A stretch of 63,166 bases of DNA, from the IMG/VR virus record IMGVR_UViG_3300037191_001756, positions 1-63,166 of that record. The stretch is one strand, 5' to 3'. The DNA comes from a virus. Positions 2,117 through 30,024 of the stretch are shown here, in pieces (position 1 is the stretch's first letter; each line of letters opens with the position of its first letter). A program made the translations under genes and the position numbers. A model generated the notes under the pieces. The model did not search any database. It was not told where the DNA came from and was given only the letters and a program-made list of their open reading frames with translations.

Positions 2117-2118
2117 TT

Positions 2119-2691: not shown

Positions 2692-2694
2692 ACT

Positions 2695-3892: not shown

Positions 3893-3893
3893 A

Positions 3894-4451: not shown

Positions 4452-4454
4452 CAG

Positions 4455-4901: not shown

Positions 4902-4908
4902 AACTAAT

Positions 4909-5250: not shown

Positions 5251-5254
5251 AAAC

Positions 5255-5635: not shown

Positions 5636-5654
5636 AATACTGCTAAAATATTAT

Positions 5655-5662
5655 TACCTTTG
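5655..5662 (+). promoter_or_regulatory. Candidate Bacteroidota -7 promoter box TACCTTTG
   Basis: TACCTTTG fits the Bacteroidota sigma-ABfr -7 consensus TAnnTTTG. It lies in the 104-base gap before the membrane-anchored protein at 5740, leaving an AT-rich leader of about 70 bases. A matching TTTG -33 box is not present at the expected distance (nearest is TTTA at 5627), so this is only a candidate. Confidence 0.35.
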
Positions 5663-5739
5663 ATTTAGTTAAAATAGTATAAATAAGATTTATGGAGAGA
5701 GGAGAGTGCAATCTTCTCTTTCCAATTAAATTAATAAAC

Positions 5740-6459
5740 ATGAATAAAATAAATAAAATTTTACTTGCTTCGATAGCTTTACTGCTTGTTACTTGGGCAA
5801 TAAGCCTTTTAGTTATGATATTCTCAACAAGAAAAGTTGAAAACATAACTTTAGAAGATAATTCTAATACAAGAAGATGGACTGAAGATAGTGCTAATGT
5901 AGTAAGAGTTAATTCAATTAACTCTTTAACTTTAAGAGAGTTAAAAAAGTTAAAAACACAAGATTCTTTAATTAAAGAACTTATTATTACTGTAAATCAG
6001 TTTAAGAAAGAGCTTAAAAAAGGAGGTAGTGTCACTAACTTTACTACTACTAATATTATTAATGATACTATTTTTACTGATATCACTGATGTTGAATATG
6101 AAGTTGTTAATGATACTGTATTTGTATACCCTACTTATGAAGGTAAGCTTGATAATTTATGGTACTCAGGGCTTATTAGAGCCTCTAGAGAGACTCTAAT
6201 TCTTGATTCTTTAAAAGTGTATGGAGATTACTCTTTAATTCAAGGTACTGAGAAATATGGCTTTCTAAAGTTAAAACAAAAGAAATTTGTTCAAATTAAA
6301 TGTAACAATCCTTACGCTGAGATTGATAAAATAAAAACTTTCATAGTTCCACCTAAACAAAGAAAGATATACTTAGGAATTGGAGTGTTTGGAGGAATTA
6401 GTAATAAACAAGAACCTACCTATGGAGTAGGTATCAACCTTAGTTATAAAATATTTTAG
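5740..6459 (+). CDS. Membrane-anchored periplasmic protein, 239 aa
   Basis: An N-terminal transmembrane helix (KILLASIALLLVTWAISLLVMIFS, about residues 6-29) is followed by a coiled-coil stretch (LRELKKLKTQDSLIKELIIT). A Thr/Asn-rich beta region comes next, and a C-terminal block RKIYLGIGVFGGISN...YGVGINLSYKIF, whose alternating pattern resembles outer-membrane beta-strands. This arrangement is common in Bacteroidota phages and could span the periplasm as a spanin-like or Rz-like protein, which is inference. ATG 5740 is chosen because it begins MNKINKILL directly before the helix; an upstream in-frame ATG at 5692 would add 16 less likely residues. The stop is TAG. Confidence 0.75.
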   Translation: MNKINKILLASIALLLVTWAISLLVMIFSTRKVENITLEDNSNTRRWTEDSANVVRVNSINSLTLRELKKLKTQDSLIKELIITVNQFKKELKKGGSVTNFTTTNIINDTIFTDITDVEYEVVNDTVFVYPTYEGKLDNLWYSGLIRASRETLILDSLKVYGDYSLIQGTEKYGFLKLKQKKFVQIKCNNPYAEIDKIKTFIVPPKQRKIYLGIGVFGGISNKQEPTYGVGINLSYKIF

Positions 6460-12078: not shown

Positions 12079-15000
12079 TTAATCACAATTAATTAAAGTT
12101 TCTTGAGCTTTTCTGTTCTTAAACTCTTTAGTAATATCTATTACTTTCATCAAGTTTTTTTGAACTTTGTTATCTCCACTTAAGAATTTTTTTACACCAC
12201 TATTATGGATGTCCTCCAAAGATACATTAAAATCTTCAATGATTTTTTCTTTGGTTAATCCAGGATTTGTTTTGATGTAACTAGCTAAAGTTTGAACTTT
12301 ATCATAAGCTAAAGAAGATATATAAAAATATCTAGTTTCTCCATTGTGTTCTACAGGATATATTCCTGGTTTATTAAGCTTACTCCATTCAATTCCTCTA
12401 ATAGTCAATTTTTTATCACCGTCTATGACTTGCTGTACTGTAGTTTTATTCATTGGAAAAGTACCACCTTCAATACCTTTTGCTATTATAAAGTCTAAGT
12501 TAGATTCCTCTAAACTATCACTTTCAACAGCTCTTCCTTCATTTATATAATACTCAGTAGCAACAGGTTCCTCGAATATAATTTCTTCTTCTGCTCTAGC
12601 TTCATTAATCATAGCTTCAATTTCTGCATCATTTTCTATTTTATCAAAAGCAGTATTTTTTTCTTCAGGAAACCATTTAGCTTTTAATTGATTATCTACT
12701 GTAAATAGTTTTGAAGAAACTATAAATGTATTATAAGCAACAGTGTTTTTGTTTAACCTTTTTAATCCAATTTTAGTTAAAAGTTTTGCAATTAACTTTA
12801 AAAAATCTTCACCAAAAGACACTCCGAAAGACACTTTTGATCTTACATTATTCATTTCATCTCTAAAAGATTCTTTAGTAAACATTTCTGCTACAAATTC
12901 TTTTATATTGTAAAAAGGGTAGAATTTATCAATAGACTGCTGATAAGTTTTCTCTTTACTATTATCAGGAAATTTGTACTCAGATAAAGGCTTACCTTCT
13001 GCTCTTAAGTTTTTTCTTCTGTTATACTCAGCTCTAAACTGTTGTAATTCCACACCAAATGTAGCAGATTTACTATCAATTGCTTCATTAAATAACTTTA
13101 ACAATGTAACAGCTTCTATACTAGCATTTTTAGCTATAGTAATACCGTCTTCTATATCAAACTGAGTATTTAAATAATCAACACTCACAATATGAATACT
13201 TTCATGAAGTAAGACTCTTAGAAAATAATCTCTACTACGATTACTCATAGTTTTCATATTTGAGCTTATTTTTAAAGAAGCTTTACCAGCCACACTAGAT
13301 GGAGTAGCAAATCCTGCTGTTTGAAGATTAGGGTCAATTCCTACTTTAATACCTTTTAAGAACGGTGATATAGCTTCAATAAGGCTTCTAGTTGATTCAC
13401 TTACTTCATCATAGTTTTTAGCTGATTCTAAGTAATCAACCAAACCTCCACCATTTCTAATACTTTGCTCTAACTTTTTAACCTCTCCTATGTATTCTGA
13501 CTTCTCTTTAGGTTTTACTCTTACCACAGGAGGAACAACTGCTTTTGGAGCTAATTTAGGAACAGGTTTAACTTTATTTTTAGTATTACCTAAGATAGTT
13601 TCAGAGTAACCCACTGTGTTAGGAGAATATTCTGACATACCAAAAGTACCTAAAACAGGTATTTCAATATACTTCTCTTCTTGGAGCATAAATATTCTAT
13701 ACTTTTGTTTCGGAGCTTTGATACTTTTGTCATACATAGCTACAAAACCAGTACCTCCAAACAAACTTAAAATAGAATTTTTATCTTCTATAGAAAAACT
13801 TCCATCTTTATTTTTCTTTAAATCTTTAGGTTGAATTTTAGACAACAACTTAGGATTATTTTGAAAGAATTGAGTTTCAAAATTACTTAAATCATTTAAA
13901 AAATCTTTACTGTCCATAGTATTAAAATACTGAGAGAAACCTCTTTCTTTCAATAAGTTTACAGGAATATATTTAATAAATTGAATAGCTTCTTGAACAC
14001 CACCTTCTAATAAAGAATACTGAATCAAGTCATCAATCAACATATCCACTGTATAATCTTTACCATTTCTCTTTGGTAATACTATACTACTCTTTTGATT
14101 CTCTAGCATAGGTAAAGAAGCGTATAATAAAGAGTCATCAAAAGCTTCTCCAACTGCATTGTTAAATTCTAACAAAGATGGACCACCATTCTTACCTAAT
14201 TTGTAGGTAAATCTTCCTAGTAATTTGTTTTCTTTTAAAGCTGGTATATTTTTAAGATTAGTCAATAAATATTTAGCCAATGACTCATTAGAGTTTGTAT
14301 CTAAAAATAATTCTGCTCTTTTATTACTCGCATTCTCAGGAGAAATGTTGTTTTTACTATGAGAATTAAAATACTTTTTAATCTCTTTTAACAGTTTTAT
14401 TTTAAATTCTGTTACAGCAAAATCGCTTTCAGCATTTGTTTTACTTATTTTAAGTAATTTATTAAAGTATTGCTTAACTTCAGGTGAATCATATACAAAA
14501 AATCTTGACCATAGTTTCTGAGCTACAAAAGCACTTTCTACTATCATCTTAGACATTGGATTACTAGGTTTTATAAAAACACCATTAAACTCTCTGTACC
14601 CATCTTTTTTAAGTTGTCTTACTTTTTCTATACCATCATTTTTTTGTAAAGTTTCAATTTGACCAAATAAAGCTTCATATCCTTCTAAATAAACTCCTTC
14701 CATTGGTTTATATCTACCAACAATGTTTCCTAATCCATCATATTTATCAGAAGCTTCTAATCTAGATTTACCCAAACCTTTGTTTGCATTCAATTGAGAT
14801 TGTAATGTTCTTATAGAATCTGCTTTTTCATCAAGTTTTAGAAACATGTTCAACACTGCTACCTGAGTTTCATTCTCAGGGTTAGTAAGATTATTGTATA
14901 ATGACTCTCCTGATAAGTCAGGGACATTACCCACTTCTATACCATACTTTTCTCTTAAACCATCAATAAATACTTCTTTAGCATCTGCTGTGAAGTCCTT

Positions 15001-18000
15001 AGTTTGAGAACTTAATGCAGTTAATCCTGCTACATATTCTCTTATTATTGGTTGAGATAGAAATAGAAAAGGAATATTACCTTTCTTATAGTACTTGCCA
15101 CCTACTTTAATGGTATTTTTTTTATTGCTTTTAAATTCTTCTTCAGTAATTTCCCAAGCATCCATATCAATACCTAAACCTACTAATAACGCATCTACGT
15201 TAATAGTTTGAGAATTAATATTGACTCTACCTAATACTTGCTCTTTTACATTATCTGTAGCAATATTTTGTCTTTCTGCTAATACATCTGTGTTACTTCT
15301 TCTGATTTTATCTGCAACAGCTTTTGGAAGTACACTACTAGACAAAGTATCACTTCTACCTAAGAAACCATCACTAGTTGTATTACCAAAGACAATAGGG
15401 TCATCTTTTAATATTCTAGTATTTTCTTCTTTCGAGGAAACTTTAATTTTTATACTACCTAGTTTTTTTGAACTAGATTGTTGAACCATAGAGTGGAAAG
15501 TAACCATATTAGAGTAAACTCCAATTGCTAGTTTTCCTGAGCTACCTGCTTCCATTTTTCTTCTTTGATGAGAAGGAGAAGCTAATGTAAACATACTAGA
15601 CTTGTCAGCTATTAAGGTGTCAATCATTTCTGCTTGACTATTAGCAATATCCATTGATAATACCTTATTAATTCTTTTTTGAACTTCAGGTTCTGCATTA
15701 CCTAATACTTTACCATAAACTCTAACTATCTTATTTTCAAGAATTTTCTTTTTAAGTTTTCTTAATTTCTTTCTATCTTTTAATTTTAAGTTACCTGCCA
15801 ATTTATTATTAATCTCTTCTAAAGAATAGATTTCATCAATAGGTTTTATATTACCACTAGAATCTACTTCATGTCTTAAATGATAAGTAGTTTCTTTATC
15901 TACATCAAAATCTAATCCTTTTTGAACTGTAAGGTTCTTAGGGACTATCATAATATCTCCACTTTCAAAAGGTAAGATACCTACAATCTCTAATTGAGTC
16001 ATAGATTGATGAGAAGATGTTGGAACTCTAAAAGAAGTTATAGATAATAAATCTTTAGAAATACTATCTTTTAACATCATTTTACCACCTTTTTCCTCTA
16101 CGTAAAGAGGATTAGGAGTTCCATCAGCAAATATTAACTCAATTAATTTTCCATCGTTATCTCTGAACTTAGGACCAACCATTATTTGAGCTTTCTTAAG
16201 CCCTATTATTTTACCATTCTTATCTTTATAAAACTCAGCAGCTTTCAATTCTCCTTCCCAAGCTGAAGTATAAACAACATGGTCACTAGGTTTTTTTGAA
16301 GGATTATCTTTTAATTTAGTTTGAAAACCTGTATTTGAAGGTTGAATTTGAGGTTTCTTTTTGTTTAAAATCTCATCTTTTACTAAATCATCTGCTTCTT
16401 CAATTTTTTCTTGCTGTGGAGTAGTTTTAGTATTGGTCTCAGTCCCAAATATATTAAAAAATAAATCACTTTCAGATATACCATTTTCTGCTAACTTACC
16501 TGATATTGCATTATATAATAAATTAGGAATTTGGCTTTCAAAAGTAACTCCTTCAAAAGGATTTTTATCTTTTTGACCTTCTTTTAATAGTTTTTCAGCT
16601 TCTTTCCCAAAACTAATTCTATCTTTTAAACTTGATTCTTCAACAGAAAACAATTGTAGAGATTTAAATTCTGCTGCTAAAATTGCTTTATTGTTAGAAT
16701 TTTGAATCCAGTCAGGTAAAATACTTTCTATGAAAGATTCTAACTTATCACTAAAGTCAGTCTTAGTATCTTCAAGTTGAGTATCAACTTCTGTGTTTTG
16801 ATACTTTTGTTCTTGTTTTTTAACTCTAGGTAGTGATGGTTCAAGTTTTTCAACATTAGCTTTATCTAAAGTTTTATTTAATTTAGATTGTACTACTAAT
16901 TTATGACTTGCTCTTGAAATAGCTACATATAAAGATTGATTTTTAGCTTTACTAGTTCCACCATTAGTGCTACCTAATATATTATCCTCCATTACATAAG
17001 CATTTCTATAAGTAGACCCTTGTGCTTTATGAGAATTTATAGCATAGCCATATTGTAAATTTGGCAACTGAGCAGAAACTGTATAAGCTAATGCAGGATT
17101 TTTATCAATACCTAAGTTTTTATCTCCTTTAAACAACTTTTGTACTTCATTTTTAAGTCTATTTTTTTCTTCAGGAATAGGTATTTCAATAGTAATTTCC
17201 TTATTAGTCATATTATTGACCATAGTGACTCTTACTGCTTTATACTTTAAATTTGTAGAAGTAGTCCCTTTTCTTGTAGTTCTTGAAAAATTTTGAATCT
17301 TATCAAAAACTTCCCCAACTTCTGAAATAGTAAAATCAGTAGAGTTTTCAACTATTACTTCTTTATCTTTCATTAAAGTATCGTAGAACACCACTTGTTC
17401 TCCTTTTACTATTGAAAGAGCATCTTTACCATATAATATCTCTCTAGCTTTATCATTTAAGTTTTTAACTGATTGTGAACTAGTGTGATTTTCATTATTA
17501 AATGTAACAAGTTTAGTAGAAGTTGGATTCTCTTTAAAATCTTCTGCAAATTCTTCTAAAACTTTTGATTCATCTTTAAAGAATAAAACACCTTCATTAG
17601 TATCTTCATTAAATTTACTAGTTCTTTCCTCAATTACTCTTGTTTTAGGAGATTCAGATTCTACATTATTAGCTACAATATCAGACAAAGGTATAATTGG
17701 AGACAATTCATCTTGTCTCATTCTTTCTGATAAATTAGCTCCAACACTTTCTTCAAAAACTTTAGAATCATTGCTTTGTCCTACAGGAGGTAGTTGTGCA
17801 TTATCCCCCATAAAGATAATTTTAGCATCAGGATTCATGTCTTTTTTAATCTGTTTTAGCAACTCATCAGAAACCATAGATGCTTCATCTAATACAATAA
17901 GATTATATTGTTTTATAGCTAAAAATTCTCCATCTTGTCTTCTTGCATAAATATCTAACTTAAATTTACCTGTAGTTTCATCTAACTTAATACCTAATGA

Positions 18001-21000
18001 AGAAGCTAGAGTATTAGCTCTTACTCCAACAGATTCTGCTAAAACTGTTTTAGCTTTGTGAGTAGGAGCAAGAAATAAGGTATGTCTGTTATTAACTAAT
18101 TTTTTAATTATAGTAGTTTTACCTGTTCCTCCTCTTCCTGTTAATACAAAAATCTTTTCGTCAGAGTCTAAAAACTCTCTCATAGATTTTAAAGCAGCTT
18201 CTTGACCTTCATTAGCATAGACTCCTGGGAATAGTTGAGTTCTTCCTGTAGAATTATCAGGTAATGCATCACCTTCAACTTCTGTAGGTGCTTGTGAATT
18301 ATTTTTATAATTTTTAAACTTTTCTATGTCTTTTTCAGAACCTAATATATGAATTTGAGGTGAAGATTTAACAACGTATTCAGTACCTGTGTTTGTTTTC
18401 CCTTCTCTTTCCCCTATTACACCATCATTATTTTTAGTATTTTGTCCAATCTTATCAATATCAATGTAAGTATTATTAACAATTACCTGCTCTAACCCTC
18501 CTCTAACTTCTGTGGCTTTAGCAGGATTTTTAATATTAATAATTGCAGCAGTTACTGAACCTTTTGGAGTAGTAACTTCCTCTTCATTAGGAAATCCAAA
18601 TATATCTAATTGGTCTTCTGTATAACTAAGGTCAGTAGCTCCTTTTTTAATTGAAGTAAAATAAACACCCTTTCCAAATGTCCCTTTTTGAGAGGGCTTT
18701 AAATCTCCTTCAATTTTATTTTTACTACCATGGTAGACTACTTCTTTTACTTTACTGTCAGGGAATATACTACTTACATAGTCATTATACTCTTCTTCTG
18801 TACCTATAGAAGATAATTCAGAATTAGAATTGAATATTTCTGAAACACCTTTAATTAAAGCTGGTTTTTGAGTATCTTTTTTTACACCTTCATAAATTCC
18901 TGTATCATTATCAAAACCAAACTCTTCTAATAATCTTTGTTTTAAATAAGCATAAGTTTTAGGAGCTTTTTCTTTAAGCTTAGCTAAACCTGTACCTAAG
19001 CCATCTTTAGGAAATACTATAGGTCTTCCATCAGTTTTAATAGCTTGTATGTCCTTTTCAATAATCTTTATATTGGCTTCATACCAACTGTTCATAGAAC
19101 CATCATCAACATCAGACATAAATGCTTCTTCATTGTTATTAGGAGCAACTTTGGTAGAAATCCCAAAAGCATTCTCATTATTCCTAATCTGTGCTTGACC
19201 TCCTGTACCTTTTCTTTTATTGTTATCTCCAAATATGTATATTTTATCTGGATTAGCTTTTACATCTGAATTTGAATATCTTTTTACAACTTCTACATTA
19301 TCTTTTTGCTCTATTTCAGTATCTTTACCTTCAACTTTTGTAGGTGCTTGTTCTTGATTTCTATTTTTCTTTATAATATCACCTAGTGTTTCTTTTATTC
19401 CATACTTTTTATCTATGCTTTCAGTGTATTTAAAATCTATTGAATTTAAATTAAAACTATTTTGAGAAGGAGTTTCTTTTAAATCTTTTTTCATAGATTC
19501 AAGAAGATTTTTTGGTATAGCAGCTTCTATACTTTTCAACATAAACTCTTCTGACATCTTAGAAGAGCTTATAAAAGATTCCTCTCCGTTTTTACCTTCA
19601 TCTTTATAAAGAGTGTAAGAAAAAGGTTTATCTTTTTTTGGATTGTAAGACAACTTTGCCATCCAAGTACCTGATGCTCTCTTAAATAATATTTTAAAAT
19701 TACCACCTGTAGTATTAGGAATTATTTCTGTTATAGTACTTTCATTATTTTCAATATAATCTTTTAATTCAGTGTTTCTAAGACCTACAACAGAAGAGTT
19801 TTTTTCGTCAGCTATTGCTCTTAATATATCAAAGTCAGATTTCTGTACTTTTGGTGTTTCAATTTCAAGTCTTGAAAAACCCTTTTCTTGAGTATTATCA
19901 ACTGCACCTCTGTCAAAATAAGTATCATAATCAATCATCTTCATACCTGCTTCTGAAGCAGCTACATAACTAGAACCTGGAAGCTTAATTTTATTTATTC
20001 TATTATTTACAATAGCATTCATTAAACTTTCAAACTTATTACTATCAGGTGACAACCACAATGGAACTTCAAACTCTATTGATATTATATTTCCTTTACT
20101 ATCTTTTTCAGTTTTTAATTCTAACCCATCAATAGAGTTTTCTGAGAATCCTCTGTCTTTAGCTTCATTAATAAGTAATTCTTGTAAGTTAGTTAAAACT
20201 TTTTGATAGTCTTCTTTACTTTCAATTTCTCCACTTTTAGGAAGACCAATTTCTTCATACAAATCTTGAATTACATTATCTATGTACTCATTGTATAATC
20301 CATCAAATTCTTCTTTAATAGCAGGTCCATCAAATAATTTTGTCTTTAATTGAGAAAGACCATCTCCCATTAATAGTTTTAATACTTGAGAACCCTGTGA
20401 TACTTTGTCATCATTAGATTTTAATGATTTCATAGGTACATCCATTTGAATTCTAAAGTTATTTCTATCTAAAGAAACAGTAGCTTTATCAATCTCTAGT
20501 TGAGATACATCTCTTACTGTATTGTCAGGATTTAAAATTGACAAAGCATTACTAGTTGAACCTACTTTGTTTGCAGATTGGTAAGAAGCTCTTACTCCTT
20601 TATATTGAATCTTTCCATCAGGTCCTTTAGTATAAGCTCTTTTTTCTAGTAATCTTCTTACTTTATCTAATTCCTTACCTTTTGTTAATTGAGGTAATAG
20701 AGGGAAAGAAGAAGATTTTATGTACATAGTTCTTGCAACTCCATTAATAGTGTCATCTATCATTCCTGTATAAACAGGCTTAATAGGTTGCATCATTAAC
20801 TTAACTAAAGCATGACTTAGTAAATCTTTTTTATTTATTTCTCTACCTTCAGCTTCAGCTGCTACTTGATTTCTTATTTTTTCTTTTGATTTGTCATACA
20901 ATTTCTTGGTTACTCTACCTTGTCTGTATAGAGTATTAAGATGTTCTTCAGCAGTAGTGTACTCTTGAGCATCAGCTCCTTCAATCTCAAAATACTTGTC

Positions 21001-24000
21001 TAATTCAGGATAAGTTTCTTTTAATATGTTTTCAGCTTTAACTTTATCAGTAGAATTTTGTGCATTTTTATAATCGTCTACTAATTTCTTAGCAGCAGCT
21101 CTCTCTTCGGTGCCATACTCTAATTCTACTAGAAACTCTACATTTTCTGTAATTGCAACCCAATCATGTAACATAATTTGGTCATAAGAATCATCAACAC
21201 TATTGCTTAACTTAGAACCTGGAGCAATTAGTAAAGCTAATCTCTTATCCATGTTTCCATCTAAAGACTTAGATATCTCATCAAATACTCTAGGATTATT
21301 TACATGTTCTGCTCTTAGTACTCCTGGAGAATCAAAATACTTGTTGATATTTCCTTTAGCATATAAAGCAGGGTCACCTGAAAACAATTGAAATATATTA
21401 GCATTAGAAATTAAACTGTTAAAAGAGAAATCCATTGCAGCTATATGAATAGCTTTGTTAAAATCTGAACTTCTACTACTTAAATATAATTTATCTAATT
21501 TAGAAACATTTTTACCAGTTTTAGGGTCAACAGAGATATACTCATTTTCTCTAAAACTATCAAGAGTATTTTGGTACTCTTGGTCAACTAATCCTTCTAA
21601 AGACACTAAGGCTTTGCTTTTGAAATTGTCTTCAAAGAATTTTACATCTATATTACCTGCTTCATCTAAATCTAGTATCTGAGCAAATGTTTTACCATTA
21701 TGTTTTAATTTATTAATTTCAGGAAACATTAAAAATAAATAAGCTCCTGCATCATACCCTTTAATATCTGTTTTAGCTCCTTTAGATTTAAAGTCAACCA
21801 TTCTTTGAACTTCAGATAGAACTAAGGTTCTGTAAGCCATTTCTATCATCTCTTTAGATGCTATAGCTTTGTTATCTTTAACTTGTACTATTTTATCAGT
21901 TATATTAAATATACCTGTTTTCATAATCATCATCTGAGTTTTATCAGACATATTAGGAAAAAACATAGTAGCCATCCTCATAGGAAGATTCTTAAAAGGA
22001 CTTTTTATACTACCTTGCTTAGTGTCTTGAAAAGCACCTAATTTAGTATAATCATGGTCAATAGCTGATAAATCTGTTACACCTGCATCTCCAAATAAGT
22101 CAGCATTAAGTTGTTTTAATGCTGTTAAACCTAGATGATTTACTTCAAACTTATCTCTTAAAGGAGAGTCTTTCTCTCTTAACATTTCAAGAATATAAGA
22201 AGTATTGTTAAATGCTTTTTCATGCAACATATTTCTATACTTATCTCCATAATCTCCTTTATGTGTCAATTTCTGAGCTGTATCAGTAGCCACTGTAGTA
22301 GCTGTAAACCCAAACACTGATTTACCTGCATCTCTGAATACACTTGGAGATGGATAAGTGTTGTACTTTCTTTCTAAAGAAATTAACCCCTTCAATATGT
22401 TGGACATATCAGAGAAAGGATGATTTGCATCATCTATGCTTTCAAAAGCAGTGTAATCTCTTTTTTCTAACCCTTGTAGCCAATTAGTTAAATACCCAAA
22501 TACTCCTGTAGTGTTCCCACTAACTCTGAACATACTCTCAAAAGTCACTTTCTTAGAGCCATCTTCGCTATCAAAAAACCAACCTTTGTTAATTAAATGA
22601 CTTAATGATTCAGGATTAAGTATTAGACCAAACCCATTAAGAAACTCTACTAACTCTGCAATTTTAATTCCTTGTGGAGTAAAACCTTCTTTATCAAAAA
22701 TAAATCCTCCACTATCTTTAACTTGTTTAGCAAATTTTTCTCCTAAATCTTGAAGTCTTTTTGCTTTTTCTTTATTAATAGATGTGTTTCCTTCTTTATT
22801 TAACTCTACTAATGCAGAATTTTCAAACTCTGATAAAAAGTGTTTTCTTATTACTTTAATAATGTCACTAGAATTTGTGTCAAATATTTTAACATCATAC
22901 TCATTACCTTGCCCTTTTTGATAAGAAACAAATTGCATTTTTAAAGTATGTTTAGTCATCTCATATCCAAACATATTTTGAACACCTTCATCACTTTCAG
23001 ATAACTTGTCATGAACTTGTTTCATAGTTGGGTCAGACTCCCCTTTCTCTTTTAACCTTTCTAATAAGACATCTACACTTGATAATAAACCATCAGGGTG
23101 ATTTAAAGTACTTAAAGTCATGTCATATACTTCATCAAAAGATTTGTATTTAATAACTCCTAAAAATCCTTTCTTAGTTTTATTTCCAATTCTATCTTGG
23201 ATACCAAACATGAATCTTTTTAATTTAGCAGAAGACTTTGATTTTGGATTCATTTCTACAGCTCCTTTATCAAATACTTTATCTTCCCCTACATCATCTG
23301 TGTCAAGGACTTCTTCTTGGTTGGTTGTAGATATATCTACAAACTTGTTAAACTTAGCTTCAGCTCTCTCTAATAGCTCCTCTTTGTTATTTCTAACAAT
23401 ATCAATAATATTCTTTAACTCATTTATTTTAGTAGTTAAAGATTCTGAGTCTGCTACTTCGGATAACCTGCTTTCTAAAGCTTCAATTTCATTTTCTTTA
23501 TTGTTAATAACTTCATCGAAATCTTCAGCTACATTTTCGATTAGAAGTTTTTTTGTAACAGCTTCTTCATCAGTTATATATTCAGCAAATCCATGAACTA
23601 AATAATCTACTAAATCTGAAGTCTGTTCTATGGATAATCCTGTTACAGCATTGTCATTTTCTATTACTGTAGTTGAAGTCATAGAGTTATATAAACTGTC
23701 TATAAGCTCTTCTACATTGTCAATATCTGTTTCTTCTATAACTTCTTCTCTAAGAGCAGAAGCTATTGTAGTAGTGGTCATAACTTCTTCTTCTACACTT
23801 AAGTTCTTACCCTCTACTTCTTTTACTACAGTCTCTTCTGTCTGCTCTATAACAACTATTGGGGAAACAATTTCAGGTTCTACAATAGTAGGCTGATTTA
23901 AATTCTTTTCTACTGTATCTTTTTTCTCTTTCTTAACCTGAGCAACAGCTCCTTCTTTGTCAATTTGAGATTGATTCTTTGATATTTTAAAACTTATCTT

Positions 24001-27000
24001 TGGCTGTACAAAATTAATTGTTTCACCTCCTAATTGAAAAGAATTATAACTAGAAGCCATAGATGCTCCTAATACATCTTTCATTGTACCTTCTCTTTTA
24101 AAAGCAGGACCTGATTCACCTTGTGTAATCATTGGAGAATCCATGTTCTCAAACAAAGTTCTCGAAGGATTAAATTTCATATCAGCAAGTAAAGCTTTAA
24201 AATCTTCTGAACCAATAAAAGTATTCTTATCATAGTAATAACCTACTCTTTTGTCTGTGTCAGGATATTTTTTATTTGGACCTATTTTTCTAGTCTGTGC
24301 AACATATTTTCCTGCTTTGACTACTCTGTAAACTACGAAAAATCCACCATCTTGAGAAAAAATAATATCTTCTCCATTTTTTAAAACTTTAGGTCCATAC
24401 AACTTAGTGGCTGCATCATTAATAGCATTAATTCTTCTTGCTCTGTATCTTCTTTTCTCAGCAGGAGTACCAACTTTATCAGTTTTAGAACCTTTTATAT
24501 TATTTTCGTTTATTACAACACGAGACCCTCCTAACTTAACAAAGTTAAGCAAGAAGTCATTAAAAGTCTTTGGATTTGTATTTAATTCTGCTATACCTTG
24601 AGGAAACCAGCCTTCTGTAAGCTTTGCTAATTTTTTCCCCACAGCATTCTTGCTTTCTTTAGAAGCTGTAGAAGTAAATTGAGCCATCAATCCTGAAATC
24701 ATGTTTAAAAGACTAACATTATCTCCAAGTGTTTGTGGTAATAAGTACTGAGCAATATATCTTCCATCAGGTTTTTCTAATAACTCCATATAAGCTCCTG
24801 GAGGAAAAGGTTTGTTATGAGTATCAACTTCTTCTTTATTGATGACCTTATTTCCAATTACAAAATTTCCAGAACCATCTACAAATGATACAACAGAGTT
24901 AGGTTTTGTAGACAAAGGTCTGATACCTTGAGGATTATCTTCTGTCACAACAACTTGTGGAGCAGTTCCTATTGTCTTTCCTGAAACAGTAATAGACAAA
25001 GAACCATTGCCAGATACAGCTTTTCTTAAAGAGTTTATTTCTTTTTTACCTTTTTCAATTTGAGCTTGTACATCTTTACTATCTTCTCCTTGTACATTCC
25101 ACTCATTAAACCAATCTTGCTCTCTAATCATAAAGACAGGGTCTCCATTCTTATTGTAAGCCATCATAGGTACTCTAGCATACCATTCAGCAGAACCTTC
25201 TACTATGTTGTTTCTTGTAACATAGTTTTGAAAAGTTTCACTTTCTTTAGGTATCCCATTTTCATCAAATTTGTTTATAGAGGTACCAAGAGCATTAGGA
25301 GAAATTTGAATGTGCAATTCATCTCCTTCTTTAACTCCATTTTTTGTCAACAATTCTTGATGTTTAATATCATCTTCTGAATTTAACTCATTAGATGTAT
25401 AGACAAATCCCCATTCTCCTGATTCAAATTGTACTAATTTATGTGGTATAGATAAGTAAACAGCATTAAAAGATATTTCTTCTAATCCAGTATCTATAGT
25501 CACTACTTGCTTTTTACCATTAGGCAAAGCTTTTACTACTTCATTACTTTTTTCAATTTTTTTATCATTGTCGGAGTTATACTCTGCTATCTCTCTATCA
25601 CTAAGTATTTGAGTAGATAAAGTAATTAAGTTATTATTAATTGAGTTTAAACTTCCTCCATTAAATATGTCATCATAAACTTCTACATAATCCATAGAAG
25701 GGTAATTATTTGCTTCCCATCCTATTTTCAAAGCCTCAAACATAGAATCAGCAAACTCTTCATTATTTAATTCAATAATTATCTCTATAAACTCTTGAAA
25801 ATCAGGAGCATACCCTATTTTTCTTTTAGTAGAACTGTAAAATCTTTTTACAGTTTGTTTTAATTTATTTTCAGCTTCTGAAGGTAAATTTTCTTTTAAT
25901 CCTAATGGTAACTCATCTTTAGAATTTAATTCTCCATAAGATATTTCAGCTTTTTCTACTAATTCCCAAACATCTTTTCCTTCTGCATTTCTTACTTTTC
26001 TAAGCTTACCTCTTTTACGTGTTACAATTTTAGTTGCTTTAGAGTCGTAATTACCTATAGTGTTTGAAACAGGCTCTACTCTATTTCCTGGGTCATTTAA
26101 AGTTGCAGTAAAAGTCGTAGGTGAATTATGAAATTCAAACTCTGCGGTATCTCCATCAACAAATAGCTTCCAAATACTAGCTCCTGATTTAGGAGAGCTT
26201 TGTCCATTTTTAACTGTAAACTCACCTTTTCCATTAGGAGCAGGTAAAAACATAGGAGTTCCTTTAGGAGTATCCATTGTTTTAGTTTCAGAAGTAGATT
26301 GTACAGCTTGACCTGGTAATTGAAATCTCTCAATACTTTGTGTATCAACTTTTTCTACAGAAGACTCTACTTTTGTAGCTTGATTTTCAGCGTTCTTTAA
26401 TTCAATAGCAAGATCACTTTTTTGTTTATTAATAGCCTCACGTTCATTAGAAAGTTCTTTTACATTATCTCTACGTGTTTGTTTTTCAAGTGATAACTCT
26501 TCAGCTTTTTCGCTTGTAAATTCACCATCAACAAGTATGATTTTAGATCCTTGATTAAACTCTTTTGCACCACCTACTACAACATCGATAGAGTTAAGTA
26601 TATCGTTTTTAATCTGTTCGTAATTGTCAGTATCTTTATTTAAACCTAAGATAGCAAGTATACTATCAATAACGTTATTTATAAAACTTTTATCTTCTTT
26701 TTTATTTAAAGTATTAACTACCCATTTTCTAAATTCAGAATCGCTAATAAAAGCTGCTTGAAATTCTACTAAATTAAGCTTTCTTAAACTAGTTTTCTTT
26801 TCACTATTAGTCATGTTTATTTTCAAGTCCTCTAATAGTCTATTAAAACTAACGAGCTCTTTAAGAACTTTACTATTAACTCTATAACCTGCTTCATCTT
26901 TTGCTTCTGCCATAGCAGTTTCTATCATCGGTGCTATAGCAGCTTTAGCAATTTCATAACCAAGTGAACGTTTGCTTGAAAAAGGATTTCTAATTGAATT

Positions 27001-30000
27001 TCCATCAGAATCAAGAGTATCTGATTCTGGCGATAACATTACATCTGCTAATTTCTCTAAAAAAGAATCCCTTTCTTTAAATACCATCCATAACTTTTTA
27101 TCTACAGTCATGTTATTAGGTAATGCTTCAATTACAGAATCAGGTATGTTTTGTTCTTTTAAGTATCCTTTAAAATGTTTGTCAAACTCTGCTGTTTCTT
27201 CATCAGTACTTTCGTCAACATCTTCTTCTACACGTTCATTATTATTTCTTTTTTTAATATTAGCTAATTCAATAATTTCCTGTTCAATTATTTTTTCAAT
27301 AGCTTCTTGTTCATCAATCTGTTCTTGAATAAGTTCTTTAAGTTCGTTGTTAAGAGCTATTGTTTTTTCATTTATCTCTTCACGTTTTTTTTCAATAGTT
27401 GTAATTTGAGCTTCTTCTAAAGCAGTTACTTTTTTAGGCTTAGGAGCATCAACTACTTTTAACCCTGATTTAGGTTCTACAACTACAGGAACTACTTTAG
27501 CTTCTTTCTCAGAAGTTAATTCTTCTGCTATACTTTTTAATTCGTTAATTAAATTAAGATTTTCTTCTTCTAGTTCTACTATGTTTTCTCTAGAATTAGA
27601 CATCTCTTCTTGTATAACTATTTCTGGAGAAAATTCTTGCTCTTGAACCTCATATTGAGGTTCAGCTCCAAATTCTTGAGTACCTATTTCAGCAGGTTCT
27701 TCAGGAGTTTTTAAAGGAACTCCTTTTTCGGAAGAAGGAATTTCTGCTGCTTTTTCTTCTTCTTTCTTAATAGCTTTAGCTTTTGCCTTTGAAGCTTTAT
27801 TTTTATTTTCTTCAGTATCAGGAAGCACTTTAGCAGCAGCTTCTACTTCTTTTACAGAAATAGCTTTTTCAATAGCTTCTTTAGCTTTTTTTACTTTATG
27901 TTCTTTTCTAAACCCTTCTTTAGACCAATCTAATAACTGAGTTTCTGCTTGGTCTAATACTTTTTCAGCATGTATTTCTCCTATCTTAAGACCTAAGTGA
28001 GTTGCTTTGTCAATTAAATTCATAGACCTACGTTCTTTAGCTCCATTAGTCCAATCTGGGTCAGCTTTAAGTTTCTCCATTTCATTTAAAACAGAAGTTC
28101 TACCAGCGATATTAGCATTGGTTTGACCTTTATCAGAAGTAATAATCATTGCTGTATTCTGATTCATCAACTCATAATACTCTTTACCTATATCAGATAA
28201 AGCAGCATAATGTTTGTCAACATTTTCAAAGTCTTTTAAGTCTTCTTTAATACTTAAACCTTCTTTTTTTAAATCCCTTACTACACTTTCAGCATGAGCA
28301 GCATTCATAGCTGAGTTGACATCTCCTTTAAACTTATTGTGATATTTACTGTAGTCAGCTTTAATTTCTTTAGCTTCTTCTAATAATGAATCAACATTAT
28401 CAGCCATAAAATCTAAATCAACTTGACTTTCAATTCCTACTACATCTCTTAAGTAATCTAAATTATTATCTTCAATTGCTTTTTGAATCTCTTCTAAATT
28501 ATCAATGTGCAGATTAAATCCTTGCTCATCATTATTTAGTTGGTCATATTGTAGAGCTTCAAAAACACTAGCTTTACTCATTTCTAACTTATGTTCATAC
28601 AAGGCTTTCTTATTCTTAGGGTCAATCTTAGACATAGCTTGTAAGTCCTCATAATTTCTAGCACCCACAGAAGATAGAAATTCTGTGTACATGGCATCAT
28701 TTCTTTTAGTTGCTCTTCTTTCTGTAAAATTTAAAGAGAAAGCTGAACCCATAGCTTTAAAACCAACTCCACCTAAAGCTCCACCAATCATAGAATCTCT
28801 TAACTCATGTCCTTTAGTTAAATGGTCAAGATAAGTAGTTTCTTTAAAAATTTTATCTTTTTGTAATGTTCTAAACTCTGCATACTTAGTCATAGATGTT
28901 TCTAACCCCTCTTCAAAAGCTTCAGATACAACTTGTACTCCATAGTTTATTCCTCCTTTTGCATACTTGTTAGTAACATTAGGAAAAGTTCTTTCTGCAA
29001 AAGACTCAATTAAAGAACCAAATCCTGTCTTAGCTTGAGCTTTACCTCCTGTAAAAGGATTATATTTACCTGCTACAGCACTATATTGAAATCCATTTAA
29101 TAACATCAATGGAATAGCTTGTAATTTAAAATTCAAAGCAGAGGCATCAGCAGCTTTTTGCTTTGAAGTATCATCATCGTATCCTAATTTTTTATACTGA
29201 TTAAAAGTAGCTTCTCCTGCACCAAGAGAATTCATAAATGCTTGTTTAAATCCTTGTGCAGCTCCAAAACCTCTTTGGAATTTAGAAGTATTTGCCATAG
29301 CAGACTTAACTCCAAACTTAAGCTTTTTTGCAAGAGATAATCCTTTTTGTACACTTCTCGCTGTTTTAGCAGCACCAGCAAGATTACCTGTTCCTCCTGT
29401 TATAAGACCTAATGCAGCTTGTTCTGCAAATGTAGCTGCAATTAATCCTGTAGAATATCCAAAGTTTTGTAATTGATTACCCCAATAAGCTCCACTCCAC
29501 ACATCATCACCATCTTGATAGATAGCGTATTTTTCTCCAGCAGTTTTTTGAAAAGCTTTAGCTTGGCGACCAAACCAATTTTCATATTCATAAGTAGCAT
29601 CTTTACTTGCCATAGCTGCCATACCTACAGGGTCATTAGAACCTAATAAGTCTAAAACTCCTGCCTTAAAGTTTAATTTAAATCCTGCAATAGTATTTAA
29701 AAATACCTCTCCTTTACCTTGGTTAAGAGCAGCTACTCTCTCTGTGTCTTTCATATCACCAAAAGTGTTGATATTCTTTCTAGCTTGTTCATACCTAGGG
29801 TCTAAGTATTTCTCTCCTTGAAGATTATCAGCATTAGCTGTAGTATATCTAGTATTTCTTGGGTCAGGACTATTTATTTTTCTTTTTCTATCATTCTCTG
29901 CATTACTTCTACCTATGTCAGCAAGTGTTTCTTTAGAAGCATAAGTATATCCTTCTAATTGCTTGTCTACTTTTTTAGGAGGTTCATTACCTACATTCTT

Positions 30001-30024
30001 TGACAAATCTATTGGTTCAGCCAT
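12079..30024 (-). CDS. Giant multidomain virion RNA polymerase / polyvalent protein, 5981 aa
   Basis: One uninterrupted frame of 5981 codons. The RNA polymerase core is recognised by DFDVD at residues 4705-4709, preceded by FRVPTSSHQSMTQLEIVGIL, as in crAss-like single-chain polymerases (three catalytic Asp). An upstream core segment around 3070-3370 includes KLPGSSYVAASEAG (K3347). The 1200 residues between hold a macro-like domain (about 3580-3700), an ADP-ribosyltransferase-like domain (3755-3905) and an SF1 helicase (3930-4385). A zincin motif HESIH (5607-5611) and a PUA/ASCH-like end (5850-5975) follow. The N-terminal third has Gly/Ala-rich helices (190-250) and long charged coiled coils (700-1000). 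Multi-thousand-residue polymerase proteins occur in some crAss-like groups. It should be packaged and injected to transcribe early genes; cleavage into smaller pieces is possible. Confidence 0.88.
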   Translation of the reverse strand: MAEPIDLSKNVGNEPPKKVDKQLEGYTYASKETLADIGRSNAENDRKRKINSPDPRNTRYTTANADNLQGEKYLDPRYEQARKNINTFGDMKDTERVAALNQGKGEVFLNTIAGFKLNFKAGVLDLLGSNDPVGMAAMASKDATYEYENWFGRQAKAFQKTAGEKYAIYQDGDDVWSGAYWGNQLQNFGYSTGLIAATFAEQAALGLITGGTGNLAGAAKTARSVQKGLSLAKKLKFGVKSAMANTSKFQRGFGAAQGFKQAFMNSLGAGEATFNQYKKLGYDDDTSKQKAADASALNFKLQAIPLMLLNGFQYSAVAGKYNPFTGGKAQAKTGFGSLIESFAERTFPNVTNKYAKGGINYGVQVVSEAFEEGLETSMTKYAEFRTLQKDKIFKETTYLDHLTKGHELRDSMIGGALGGVGFKAMGSAFSLNFTERRATKRNDAMYTEFLSSVGARNYEDLQAMSKIDPKNKKALYEHKLEMSKASVFEALQYDQLNNDEQGFNLHIDNLEEIQKAIEDNNLDYLRDVVGIESQVDLDFMADNVDSLLEEAKEIKADYSKYHNKFKGDVNSAMNAAHAESVVRDLKKEGLSIKEDLKDFENVDKHYAALSDIGKEYYELMNQNTAMIITSDKGQTNANIAGRTSVLNEMEKLKADPDWTNGAKERRSMNLIDKATHLGLKIGEIHAEKVLDQAETQLLDWSKEGFRKEHKVKKAKEAIEKAISVKEVEAAAKVLPDTEENKNKASKAKAKAIKKEEEKAAEIPSSEKGVPLKTPEEPAEIGTQEFGAEPQYEVQEQEFSPEIVIQEEMSNSRENIVELEEENLNLINELKSIAEELTSEKEAKVVPVVVEPKSGLKVVDAPKPKKVTALEEAQITTIEKKREEINEKTIALNNELKELIQEQIDEQEAIEKIIEQEIIELANIKKRNNNERVEEDVDESTDEETAEFDKHFKGYLKEQNIPDSVIEALPNNMTVDKKLWMVFKERDSFLEKLADVMLSPESDTLDSDGNSIRNPFSSKRSLGYEIAKAAIAPMIETAMAEAKDEAGYRVNSKVLKELVSFNRLLEDLKINMTNSEKKTSLRKLNLVEFQAAFISDSEFRKWVVNTLNKKEDKSFINNVIDSILAILGLNKDTDNYEQIKNDILNSIDVVVGGAKEFNQGSKIILVDGEFTSEKAEELSLEKQTRRDNVKELSNEREAINKQKSDLAIELKNAENQATKVESSVEKVDTQSIERFQLPGQAVQSTSETKTMDTPKGTPMFLPAPNGKGEFTVKNGQSSPKSGASIWKLFVDGDTAEFEFHNSPTTFTATLNDPGNRVEPVSNTIGNYDSKATKIVTRKRGKLRKVRNAEGKDVWELVEKAEISYGELNSKDELPLGLKENLPSEAENKLKQTVKRFYSSTKRKIGYAPDFQEFIEIIIELNNEEFADSMFEALKIGWEANNYPSMDYVEVYDDIFNGGSLNSINNNLITLSTQILSDREIAEYNSDNDKKIEKSNEVVKALPNGKKQVVTIDTGLEEISFNAVYLSIPHKLVQFESGEWGFVYTSNELNSEDDIKHQELLTKNGVKEGDELHIQISPNALGTSINKFDENGIPKESETFQNYVTRNNIVEGSAEWYARVPMMAYNKNGDPVFMIREQDWFNEWNVQGEDSKDVQAQIEKGKKEINSLRKAVSGNGSLSITVSGKTIGTAPQVVVTEDNPQGIRPLSTKPNSVVSFVDGSGNFVIGNKVINKEEVDTHNKPFPPGAYMELLEKPDGRYIAQYLLPQTLGDNVSLLNMISGLMAQFTSTASKESKNAVGKKLAKLTEGWFPQGIAELNTNPKTFNDFLLNFVKLGGSRVVINENNIKGSKTDKVGTPAEKRRYRARRINAINDAATKLYGPKVLKNGEDIIFSQDGGFFVVYRVVKAGKYVAQTRKIGPNKKYPDTDKRVGYYYDKNTFIGSEDFKALLADMKFNPSRTLFENMDSPMITQGESGPAFKREGTMKDVLGASMASSYNSFQLGGETINFVQPKISFKISKNQSQIDKEGAVAQVKKEKKDTVEKNLNQPTIVEPEIVSPIVVIEQTEETVVKEVEGKNLSVEEEVMTTTTIASALREEVIEETDIDNVEELIDSLYNSMTSTTVIENDNAVTGLSIEQTSDLVDYLVHGFAEYITDEEAVTKKLLIENVAEDFDEVINNKENEIEALESRLSEVADSESLTTKINELKNIIDIVRNNKEELLERAEAKFNKFVDISTTNQEEVLDTDDVGEDKVFDKGAVEMNPKSKSSAKLKRFMFGIQDRIGNKTKKGFLGVIKYKSFDEVYDMTLSTLNHPDGLLSSVDVLLERLKEKGESDPTMKQVHDKLSESDEGVQNMFGYEMTKHTLKMQFVSYQKGQGNEYDVKIFDTNSSDIIKVIRKHFLSEFENSALVELNKEGNTSINKEKAKRLQDLGEKFAKQVKDSGGFIFDKEGFTPQGIKIAELVEFLNGFGLILNPESLSHLINKGWFFDSEDGSKKVTFESMFRVSGNTTGVFGYLTNWLQGLEKRDYTAFESIDDANHPFSDMSNILKGLISLERKYNTYPSPSVFRDAGKSVFGFTATTVATDTAQKLTHKGDYGDKYRNMLHEKAFNNTSYILEMLREKDSPLRDKFEVNHLGLTALKQLNADLFGDAGVTDLSAIDHDYTKLGAFQDTKQGSIKSPFKNLPMRMATMFFPNMSDKTQMMIMKTGIFNITDKIVQVKDNKAIASKEMIEMAYRTLVLSEVQRMVDFKSKGAKTDIKGYDAGAYLFLMFPEINKLKHNGKTFAQILDLDEAGNIDVKFFEDNFKSKALVSLEGLVDQEYQNTLDSFRENEYISVDPKTGKNVSKLDKLYLSSRSSDFNKAIHIAAMDFSFNSLISNANIFQLFSGDPALYAKGNINKYFDSPGVLRAEHVNNPRVFDEISKSLDGNMDKRLALLIAPGSKLSNSVDDSYDQIMLHDWVAITENVEFLVELEYGTEERAAAKKLVDDYKNAQNSTDKVKAENILKETYPELDKYFEIEGADAQEYTTAEEHLNTLYRQGRVTKKLYDKSKEKIRNQVAAEAEGREINKKDLLSHALVKLMMQPIKPVYTGMIDDTINGVARTMYIKSSSFPLLPQLTKGKELDKVRRLLEKRAYTKGPDGKIQYKGVRASYQSANKVGSTSNALSILNPDNTVRDVSQLEIDKATVSLDRNNFRIQMDVPMKSLKSNDDKVSQGSQVLKLLMGDGLSQLKTKLFDGPAIKEEFDGLYNEYIDNVIQDLYEEIGLPKSGEIESKEDYQKVLTNLQELLINEAKDRGFSENSIDGLELKTEKDSKGNIISIEFEVPLWLSPDSNKFESLMNAIVNNRINKIKLPGSSYVAASEAGMKMIDYDTYFDRGAVDNTQEKGFSRLEIETPKVQKSDFDILRAIADEKNSSVVGLRNTELKDYIENNESTITEIIPNTTGGNFKILFKRASGTWMAKLSYNPKKDKPFSYTLYKDEGKNGEESFISSSKMSEEFMLKSIEAAIPKNLLESMKKDLKETPSQNSFNLNSIDFKYTESIDKKYGIKETLGDIIKKNRNQEQAPTKVEGKDTEIEQKDNVEVVKRYSNSDVKANPDKIYIFGDNNKRKGTGGQAQIRNNENAFGISTKVAPNNNEEAFMSDVDDGSMNSWYEANIKIIEKDIQAIKTDGRPIVFPKDGLGTGLAKLKEKAPKTYAYLKQRLLEEFGFDNDTGIYEGVKKDTQKPALIKGVSEIFNSNSELSSIGTEEEYNDYVSSIFPDSKVKEVVYHGSKNKIEGDLKPSQKGTFGKGVYFTSIKKGATDLSYTEDQLDIFGFPNEEEVTTPKGSVTAAIINIKNPAKATEVRGGLEQVIVNNTYIDIDKIGQNTKNNDGVIGEREGKTNTGTEYVVKSSPQIHILGSEKDIEKFKNYKNNSQAPTEVEGDALPDNSTGRTQLFPGVYANEGQEAALKSMREFLDSDEKIFVLTGRGGTGKTTIIKKLVNNRHTLFLAPTHKAKTVLAESVGVRANTLASSLGIKLDETTGKFKLDIYARRQDGEFLAIKQYNLIVLDEASMVSDELLKQIKKDMNPDAKIIFMGDNAQLPPVGQSNDSKVFEESVGANLSERMRQDELSPIIPLSDIVANNVESESPKTRVIEERTSKFNEDTNEGVLFFKDESKVLEEFAEDFKENPTSTKLVTFNNENHTSSQSVKNLNDKAREILYGKDALSIVKGEQVVFYDTLMKDKEVIVENSTDFTISEVGEVFDKIQNFSRTTRKGTTSTNLKYKAVRVTMVNNMTNKEITIEIPIPEEKNRLKNEVQKLFKGDKNLGIDKNPALAYTVSAQLPNLQYGYAINSHKAQGSTYRNAYVMEDNILGSTNGGTSKAKNQSLYVAISRASHKLVVQSKLNKTLDKANVEKLEPSLPRVKKQEQKYQNTEVDTQLEDTKTDFSDKLESFIESILPDWIQNSNNKAILAAEFKSLQLFSVEESSLKDRISFGKEAEKLLKEGQKDKNPFEGVTFESQIPNLLYNAISGKLAENGISESDLFFNIFGTETNTKTTPQQEKIEEADDLVKDEILNKKKPQIQPSNTGFQTKLKDNPSKKPSDHVVYTSAWEGELKAAEFYKDKNGKIIGLKKAQIMVGPKFRDNDGKLIELIFADGTPNPLYVEEKGGKMMLKDSISKDLLSITSFRVPTSSHQSMTQLEIVGILPFESGDIMIVPKNLTVQKGLDFDVDKETTYHLRHEVDSSGNIKPIDEIYSLEEINNKLAGNLKLKDRKKLRKLKKKILENKIVRVYGKVLGNAEPEVQKRINKVLSMDIANSQAEMIDTLIADKSSMFTLASPSHQRRKMEAGSSGKLAIGVYSNMVTFHSMVQQSSSKKLGSIKIKVSSKEENTRILKDDPIVFGNTTSDGFLGRSDTLSSSVLPKAVADKIRRSNTDVLAERQNIATDNVKEQVLGRVNINSQTINVDALLVGLGIDMDAWEITEEEFKSNKKNTIKVGGKYYKKGNIPFLFLSQPIIREYVAGLTALSSQTKDFTADAKEVFIDGLREKYGIEVGNVPDLSGESLYNNLTNPENETQVAVLNMFLKLDEKADSIRTLQSQLNANKGLGKSRLEASDKYDGLGNIVGRYKPMEGVYLEGYEALFGQIETLQKNDGIEKVRQLKKDGYREFNGVFIKPSNPMSKMIVESAFVAQKLWSRFFVYDSPEVKQYFNKLLKISKTNAESDFAVTEFKIKLLKEIKKYFNSHSKNNISPENASNKRAELFLDTNSNESLAKYLLTNLKNIPALKENKLLGRFTYKLGKNGGPSLLEFNNAVGEAFDDSLLYASLPMLENQKSSIVLPKRNGKDYTVDMLIDDLIQYSLLEGGVQEAIQFIKYIPVNLLKERGFSQYFNTMDSKDFLNDLSNFETQFFQNNPKLLSKIQPKDLKKNKDGSFSIEDKNSILSLFGGTGFVAMYDKSIKAPKQKYRIFMLQEEKYIEIPVLGTFGMSEYSPNTVGYSETILGNTKNKVKPVPKLAPKAVVPPVVRVKPKEKSEYIGEVKKLEQSIRNGGGLVDYLESAKNYDEVSESTRSLIEAISPFLKGIKVGIDPNLQTAGFATPSSVAGKASLKISSNMKTMSNRSRDYFLRVLLHESIHIVSVDYLNTQFDIEDGITIAKNASIEAVTLLKLFNEAIDSKSATFGVELQQFRAEYNRRKNLRAEGKPLSEYKFPDNSKEKTYQQSIDKFYPFYNIKEFVAEMFTKESFRDEMNNVRSKVSFGVSFGEDFLKLIAKLLTKIGLKRLNKNTVAYNTFIVSSKLFTVDNQLKAKWFPEEKNTAFDKIENDAEIEAMINEARAEEEIIFEEPVATEYYINEGRAVESDSLEESNLDFIIAKGIEGGTFPMNKTTVQQVIDGDKKLTIRGIEWSKLNKPGIYPVEHNGETRYFYISSLAYDKVQTLASYIKTNPGLTKEKIIEDFNVSLEDIHNSGVKKFLSGDNKVQKNLMKVIDITKEFKNRKAQETLINCD
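12100..12475 (-). other. C-terminal PUA/ASCH-like domain candidate
   Basis: Residues about 5850-5975 read FPMNKTTVQQVIDGDKKLTI, then GIYPVEHNGETRYFYISSLA. The phrase 'target fixed, K x T x R, G x Y' resembles ASCH domains, which bind RNA or modified nucleotides. Weak but recognisable. Confidence 0.4.
12870..13410 (-). other. Zincin metalloprotease-like domain (HESIH) inside the giant protein
   Basis: Residues about 5540-5720. LLHESIHIVS gives HExxH with H5607, E5608 and H5611. About 100 residues later NIKEFVAEMF offers E5709 or E5713 as third zinc ligand, as in metalloprotease domains of phage polyvalent proteins. It could cleave the giant chain itself or a host target. Confidence 0.7.
15780..16330 (-). 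other. RNA polymerase beta'-like core with DFDVD catalytic motif
   Basis: This part of the giant protein (about residues 4565-4750) holds KKAQIMVGPKF (M4615) and FRVPTSSHQSM. It ends with QKGLDFDVDKET, where D4705, D4707 and D4709 are the expected Mg-binding triad of two-barrel RNA polymerases. The surrounding wording matches crAss-like virion polymerases closely. Confidence 0.85.
16870..18240 (-). other. SF1 helicase domain (RecD/Dda-like) inside the giant protein
   Basis: Residues about 3930-4385. Walker A is GRGGTGKTT (3963-3971), Walker B LDEAS with D4046/E4047, and motif III GDNAQLPPVG with D4074 and Q4077. Motif V is INSHKAQGST near 4330 and motif VI VAISRA with R4371. All core motifs are intact, so ATP-driven 5'-3' unwinding is expected. 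Confidence 0.9.
18271..18294. repeat. 24-bp direct repeat, copy B (flanks macro-like/ART block)
   Basis: ACCTTCAACTTCTGTAGGTGCTTG; encodes QAPTEVEG (residues 3911-3918) just before the helicase. Pairs with 19327-19350 and leaves 344 residues of macro-like plus ART sequence between the copies. Confidence 0.85.
18310..18765 (-). other. ADP-ribosyltransferase-like domain (ART-PolyVal type)
   Basis: Residues about 3755-3905 contain VVYHGSKNK (H3765) and GKGVYFTS (Y3788), the H and Y strands of ART folds. A beta-rich remainder with AAIINIKNPAKA follows, as in ART domains of phage polyvalent proteins. Target and activity are unknown. In virions such a domain could modify host proteins on injection. 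Confidence 0.7.
18925..19290 (-). other. Macro-like phage domain (IFGDNNKRKGTGGQAQIR type)
   Basis: Residues about 3580-3700 have IYIFGDN (G3599), KGTGGQAQIR, AFGISTK and, further on, FPKDGLGTGLAKLKEKAP. This pattern recurs in free-standing phage proteins and resembles nucleotide-diphosphate-ribose (macro-type) binding folds. It lies directly before the ADP-ribosyltransferase-like domain, which fits ADP-ribose chemistry, though this is inference. Confidence 0.6.
19327..19350. repeat. 24-bp direct repeat, copy A (flanks macro-like/ART block)
   Basis: ACCTTCAACTTTTGTAGGTGCTTG; encodes QAPTKVEG (residues 3559-3566) on the - strand. One mismatch to 18271-18294, 1056 bases away and in the same frame. 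Confidence 0.85.
19915..20820 (-). other. Probable RNA polymerase beta-like core segment
   Basis: Residues about 3070-3370 of the giant protein contain SSSFPLLPQLT, then FRIQMDVPMKS, the segment SQGSQVLKLL, and KIKLPGSSYVAAS with K3347. Such blocks precede the beta'-like barrel in crAss-like polymerases and normally lie close to it in sequence. Here about 1200 residues separate them. Assigned by resemblance only. Confidence 0.6.

Follow-up and report, generated by a model that had tools for sequence, protein, structure and literature searches.

A crAss-like-type virion RNA polymerase carrying a cassette of effector-type domains at a recurrent insertion site

Introduction

The closest described relatives of the protein reported here are the crAss-like virion RNA polymerases phi14:2 gp66 (PDB 6VR4) and crAss001 gp50, together with the giant structural protein of the Fipvunavirus phages Fpv1 and FpV4 (phrog_16227). 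The ejection of cargo by crassviruses has been described (PMC10172136), and N4-type virion polymerases that bear an ADP-ribosyltransferase (ART) domain are likewise a described class (PMC5512222). In this study, we analysed the linear IMG/VR virus record IMGVR_UViG_3300037191_001756 over its entire length of 63,166 nucleotides, hereafter called the window. A giant open reading frame (ORF) in this window encodes a protein of the crAss-like polymerase type whose core is interrupted by a cassette that includes a DUF7831 domain, an ART domain, and a helicase of superfamily 1 (SF1). Residue numbers below refer to this protein, and the coordinates of its features are collected in Table 1.

Results

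A polymerase core interrupted by 1,218 residues

Alignment by blastp to the FpV4 giant protein places residues 2044-3363 (E 9e-157) and approximately 4575-5839 (E 4e-101) of the window protein on stretches that are adjacent in FpV4. The identical break is seen with PHROG profile 16227, where residues 2912-3365 correspond to profile positions 2631-3089 and residues 4560-4743 to positions 3078-3259. The FpV4 chain runs uninterrupted across the site as KMPGNGFVAGSESGFRMKENLEGVDKSRIIYLDSY; the window protein reads KLPGSSYVAASEAGMKM, continues for approximately 1,218 residues, and then resumes with VVYTSAWEGELKAAE. Relatives were collected as IMG/VR loci (designated by L-numbers), 62 of them via the downstream block and 74 via a wider profile, and these sets overlap. 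In Fpv and most other relatives, the distance from the KxPGxSxVxxSExG segment to the beta'-like DxDxD block is 4-40 residues and typically about 10, with a link of 11 amino acids in the Fpv1/FpV4 giant protein. Because the FpV4/Fpv1 alignments and the PHROG profile agree, the break is confirmed at the sequence level, and the proposal of an initial sequence-only reading that a cassette of about 1200 residues interrupts a crAss-like-type core is borne out. Direct repeats at the insert ends, which would be a sign of duplication upon insertion, were not found above chance (protein p 0.76, DNA p 0.92).

On homology, the assignment of the giant ORF as a crAss-like-type virion RNA polymerase is secure. 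A family profile built from 47 relatives on the empty-site side of the family spans the site and matches phi14:2 gp66 (E 1.5e-47). In addition, separate profiles for the upstream (UP) and downstream (DOWN) halves each find gp66 and crAss001 gp50, both of which are insert-free at the site, and direct blastp to gp66 works on either side of it (residues 2830-3361 and 4651-4710). An AlphaFold2 (AF2) model of the uninterrupted relative L004 (predicted local distance difference test, pLDDT, 87; predicted template modelling score, pTM, 0.82) retrieves 6VR4 by fold with an E-value of 2.3e-38. Homology and the model of this empty-site relative together predict that the window protein has two double-psi barrels. 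The DFDVD motif (D4705/D4707/D4709) lies where the sequence-only reading had located it.

The exact position of the site relative to the barrels is less clear-cut. A conserved block at about residues 3078-3215 is the probable beta-like barrel region, a label that derives from its alignment with gp66. The phrase KLPGSSYVAAS had also been read as beta-like. Its position near residue 3347 is correct, and no further conserved element follows it ahead of the site, but its label is uncertain. Its counterpart in the L004 model is an 11-residue strand (E720-730) located right before the site. This strand may open the beta'-like barrel or belong to an inter-barrel connector, and is probably not itself the beta-like barrel. 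If it is the first beta'-like strand, then the cassette sits inside that barrel; the site may thus fall just before or within it. A comparison with E. coli beta', aimed at locating the site with respect to the first strand of the barrel, yielded no alignment with hhalign that was significant or sensible, and none with Pfam. By eye, 'PGNSYVAGSE' and 'SRIIYTDKW' can each be matched to 'SGRSVITVGP' in this comparison.

Table 1. Features of the giant ORF and its product, with coordinates in the window
Feature	Residues	Window coordinates	Strand	Evidence or remark
Giant ORF		12079..30024	minus	5981 aa, stop-free; virion-type RNA polymerase fusion protein plus inserted cassette
Upstream polymerase half	2044-3363	19936..23895	minus	31% identity to FpV4/Fpv1 giant protein; UP profile E 4e-144
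Conserved block (QPIKPVYTG ... VPMKSL)	~3078-3215	20380..20793	minus	Aligns with gp66 of 6VR4
Final conserved element before site, NRINKIKLPGSSYVAASEAGMKM	3341-3363	19936..20004	minus	Kept in relatives, gp66 and crAss001 gp50
Inserted cassette	3364-4581	16282..19935	minus	~10 aa instead in most relatives; in frame
Cassette segment 1	3364-3572	19309..19935	minus	No Pfam match at E<=5
DUF7831 (PF25176)	3579-3696	18937..19290	minus	E 5e-32; AF2 model pLDDT 93
ART-PolyVal ADP-ribosyltransferase (PF18760)	3762-3891	18352..18741	minus	33.6 bits, cutoff 31.2
Dda-like SF1 helicase	3938-4400	16825..18213	minus	phrog_325 2e-72; Pfam AAA_30, UvrD_C_2
Cassette segment 4	4420-4535	16420..16767	minus	61% identity to L011:13838-14185, L025:13424-13753
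Downstream beta'-like polymerase half	4582-4998	15031..16281	minus	DOWN profile E 7e-120; 40% identity to Fpv
Catalytic DFDVD motif (D4705/D4707/D4709)	4705-4709	15898..15912	minus	Alignments; conserved context, intact
HESIH, HExxH metallopeptidase-like motif near C-terminus	5607-5611	13192..13206	minus	Motif scan

Content of the cassette

The sequence-only reading had proposed that ADP-ribose-related domains and a complete SF1 helicase lie between the polymerase halves. The helicase is present with its motifs intact (Walker A GRGGTGKT, DEAS, GDNAQLP, and SRA). Likewise, the ART domain is supported by its profile match, and residues H3765 and Y3788, as read from the translation, fit the active-site His and Tyr described for this family (PMC5512222). 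The domain that had been called macro-like is instead DUF7831. Its structural model has no significant match by fold in the PDB (best E 0.3), and a search of a viral structure library returned other DUF7831 proteins and, weakly, one phage macro protein (probability 0.11). A macro identity is therefore unsupported by these comparisons, and a very distant relation between DUF7831 and macro domains may exist. DUF7831 has a named holder in the human-gut crAss-like phages (A0A7M1RV35 of uncultured phage cr131_1), and it occurs in giant viruses such as Tupanvirus and Yasminevirus as well.

Some crAss-like phages commonly carry inteins and introns (PMC7886860), which raises the idea that the cassette is spliced out. 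However, Pfam and NCBIfam scans contain no intein (Hint) domain and Rfam no intron family, making splicing unlikely, and the cassette is an open frame throughout whose content is effector domains. With these points combined, we find such an explanation barely credible.

Relatives of the cassette's DUF7831, ART, helicase, and segment 4 occur as cargo in other polymerase giants, where they lie C-terminally. Specifically, a helicase-ART pair is found in L008 and L010, segment 4 with a helicase in L011 and L025, DUF7831 in L067-L070, and DUF7831-ART in L066. The cassette families thus appear to be mobile effector modules of the 'polyvalent protein' kind. In L072 and L171, an insertion of DUF7831 follows the DxDxD motif. 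L151 has about 650 residues inserted there (L151:4721-6679), with an HEYAHH motif and a stretch that resembles GNAT (PF13508 E 1.5e-4, below cutoff). These cases indicate that insertions also use a second loop close to the catalytic motif.

A recurrent insertion hotspot

The site that holds the cassette is a recurrent insertion hotspot, which is described here for the first time. Across the collected loci, the two profiles mostly match about 10 residues apart, and the site is empty in the Fpv phages and in dozens of contigs. At the same position, other relatives carry inserts of 56 amino acids (L131), 102 (L034 and copies), 141 (L040 and copies), and 583 (L049), all within single open frames and mutually unrelated in content.

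In a tree of 79 polymerases distinct at 90% identity, the window groups with L054, L049, L005, L004, and L097, among which only the window and L049 have inserts. Similarly, L040 with its insert of 141 amino acids neighbours the empty L042. Label changes among the labelled rows number 2, versus 2.6 with shuffled labels, and such counts alone leave the number of gains unproven. Separate insertion events are better argued from the unrelated contents of the inserts. Repeated gain (or loss) at the site is the simplest account.

Two of these inserts have further features. The L040 insert (L040:9578-10000) resembles DUF488-N3i (E 5e-4, below cutoff), and inserts of its type are also present in giant proteins that hold DUF7831 (L177, L192, and L196). 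It is 71% identical to part of the L177 giant protein, and no such polymerase was detected in the giant proteins of L177 and L196. The L049 insert (L049:8285-10039) has no Pfam match above cutoff, and its C-terminal part looks nucleotidyltransferase-like by eye (GS...HDID). Sequences related to part of this insert are encoded after polymerase genes or at their ends.

An insert that adjoins the catalytic barrel might be expected to destroy the polymerase, leaving a protein that persists purely as an effector carrier. This is very unlikely, given that both halves of the window protein, including DFDVD, retain family conservation, and that both polymerase halves are also intact in relatives with inserts at the same site.

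A split relative and the possibility of a two-chain enzyme

In L139, the two halves are encoded by separate genes that are broken at the site, with the upstream half at L139:2432-12229 and the downstream half at L139:18133-21993. The halves are about 5.9 kb apart (12229-18133) with other genes in the gap, among them two tandem ORFs (14553-15986 and 16000-17448) that are 49.6% identical. The nearest relative, L218, is a single chain with the usual short link. The sequence-only reading had suggested that a folded polymerase would need either to loop out the cassette or to be cut and put together again, and this idea has gained plausibility from the other inserts at the same site and from the relative whose halves are in two genes.

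The main alternative to an uncut chain builds on this split. The giant protein would be cut near the cassette, either in maturation or after injection, which would free the effectors and leave a two-chain polymerase with a break point close to the beta/beta' division of cellular RNA polymerase. Besides the separate ORFs of L139 set against the single chain of L218, this proposal draws on the HExxH motif near the C-terminus of the giant protein and on the autoprocessing by a metallopeptidase domain that has been proposed for N4-type virion polymerases (PMC5512222). However, both the cleavage site and the protease activity are hypothetical, and the SprT-like profile match to the giant ORF is below cutoff (E 0.058). 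The C-terminal 580 residues (window 12082-13824), which include HESIH, contain no NCBIfam or PADLOC families above threshold. Most inserts at the site reside within single open frames, and the split downstream gene is known from one contig only, with the split upstream gene end being present in three (L137-L139). We judge cleavage into two chains to be possible but rather unlikely.

L155 was evaluated as a second split case and rejected, because its in-frame TGA (L155:6476-6478) is about 65 residues past the site and inside the beta'-like region. This codon may reflect readthrough, recoding, or a sequence error.

A broader and equally tentative proposal is that crAss-like virion polymerases in general use the site both as a port for cargo and as a break point. 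In this scenario, modules would be swapped beside or inside the beta'-like barrel, and a two-chain enzyme would be workable, constituting an independent replay of the beta/beta' division. We consider this doubtful.

Discussion

With moderate confidence, we favour the explanation that the window encodes a crAss-like-type virion polymerase within a giant late protein, in which a loop bordering the beta'-like barrel tolerates an effector cassette while the core remains complete. The polymerase core would fold from both sides of this loop with the cassette looped out, as presumably happens in relatives that carry other cargo. Genes for the terminase, the portal, the major capsid protein, and a large virion protein neighbour the giant ORF, placing it within the structural block. 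This location, the cargo ejection described for crassviruses, and the precedent of polyvalent proteins suggest joint entry of polymerase and effectors, and the cassette is probably packaged and injected along with the polymerase. Once inside the cell, the ART domain might modify host proteins, and the helicase could act on the incoming DNA or in early-infection transcription.

Several observations weigh against this explanation. The structural model is that of an empty-site relative rather than of the interrupted chain, and virion packaging rests on the annotation of homologs as structural. The full cassette is present in a single contig only: the IMG/VR search found a close relative for neither the cassette helicase nor the upstream half, and the search of genome_contigs returned zero relatives. 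Also, the GC content at third codon positions (GC3) of the cassette is 0.123, slightly under that of every equal-sized block of the rest (0.140-0.182).

The last two points, along with the lack of a second assembly among the contigs searched, count in favour of a chimera of metagenome assembly, in which case the cassette would not be at this place in nature. Yet both junctions are in frame within a stop-free ORF of 5981 codons, and the codon usage of the cassette agrees with that of the rest (correlation r 0.969). Moreover, related polymerase giants have the same cargo families, and this exact site holds inserts in other contigs. An assembly artefact is therefore improbable.

The findings suggest that an RNA polymerase can accommodate over 1,000 residues of unrelated enzyme sequence at one repeatedly used spot of its catalytic core. 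Functional insertions would bring the two themes of virion polymerases and injected effectors together in a single chain. In addition, the empty, filled, and split relatives provide natural material on the assembly of two-barrel polymerases and on the origin of the beta/beta' division.

Comparison with known systems

The sequence-only reading had suggested that this exact arrangement might be undescribed. In agreement, none of the literature searched, a scope that does not extend to the primary gp66 structure paper, describes a two-barrel polymerase whose catalytic core holds effector cargo. Lineage-specific insertions in double-psi beta-barrel A (DPBB-A) of two-barrel RNA polymerases (PMC10770324) establish that catalytic-barrel insertions occur, but none with an enzyme-domain set this large has been described in that literature. 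Among the virion polymerases themselves, gp66 and crAss001 gp50 are homologous to the window protein in the core regions flanking the site, and they share with it the same DxDxD block and the one-chain order. They differ in having no insert at the site and, in the case of gp66, in size (2180 versus 5981 amino acids). Among isolated phages, the Fpv1/FpV4 giant protein is the nearest homolog across most of the polymerase half, and it has a similar gene neighbourhood, but its site is empty and it is without the DUF7831-ART-helicase cassette.

The polyvalent proteins, including N4-like polymerases with ART and metallopeptidase domains (PMC5512222), resemble the window protein in uniting a polymerase with ART-PolyVal in one multidomain protein of a type that is injected, as the window protein probably is. 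Indeed, the window polypeptide brings together unrelated enzyme domains (polymerase, ART, and SF1 helicase) and contains ART-PolyVal, as is characteristic of polyvalent proteins. The N4-like proteins, however, have an unrelated T7-type polymerase and carry their cargo outside the catalytic core, whereas the window polymerase is a two-barrel enzyme with its cargo at the catalytic barrel. The window protein combines two known kinds of protein, the crAss-like virion polymerase and the polyvalent effector protein.
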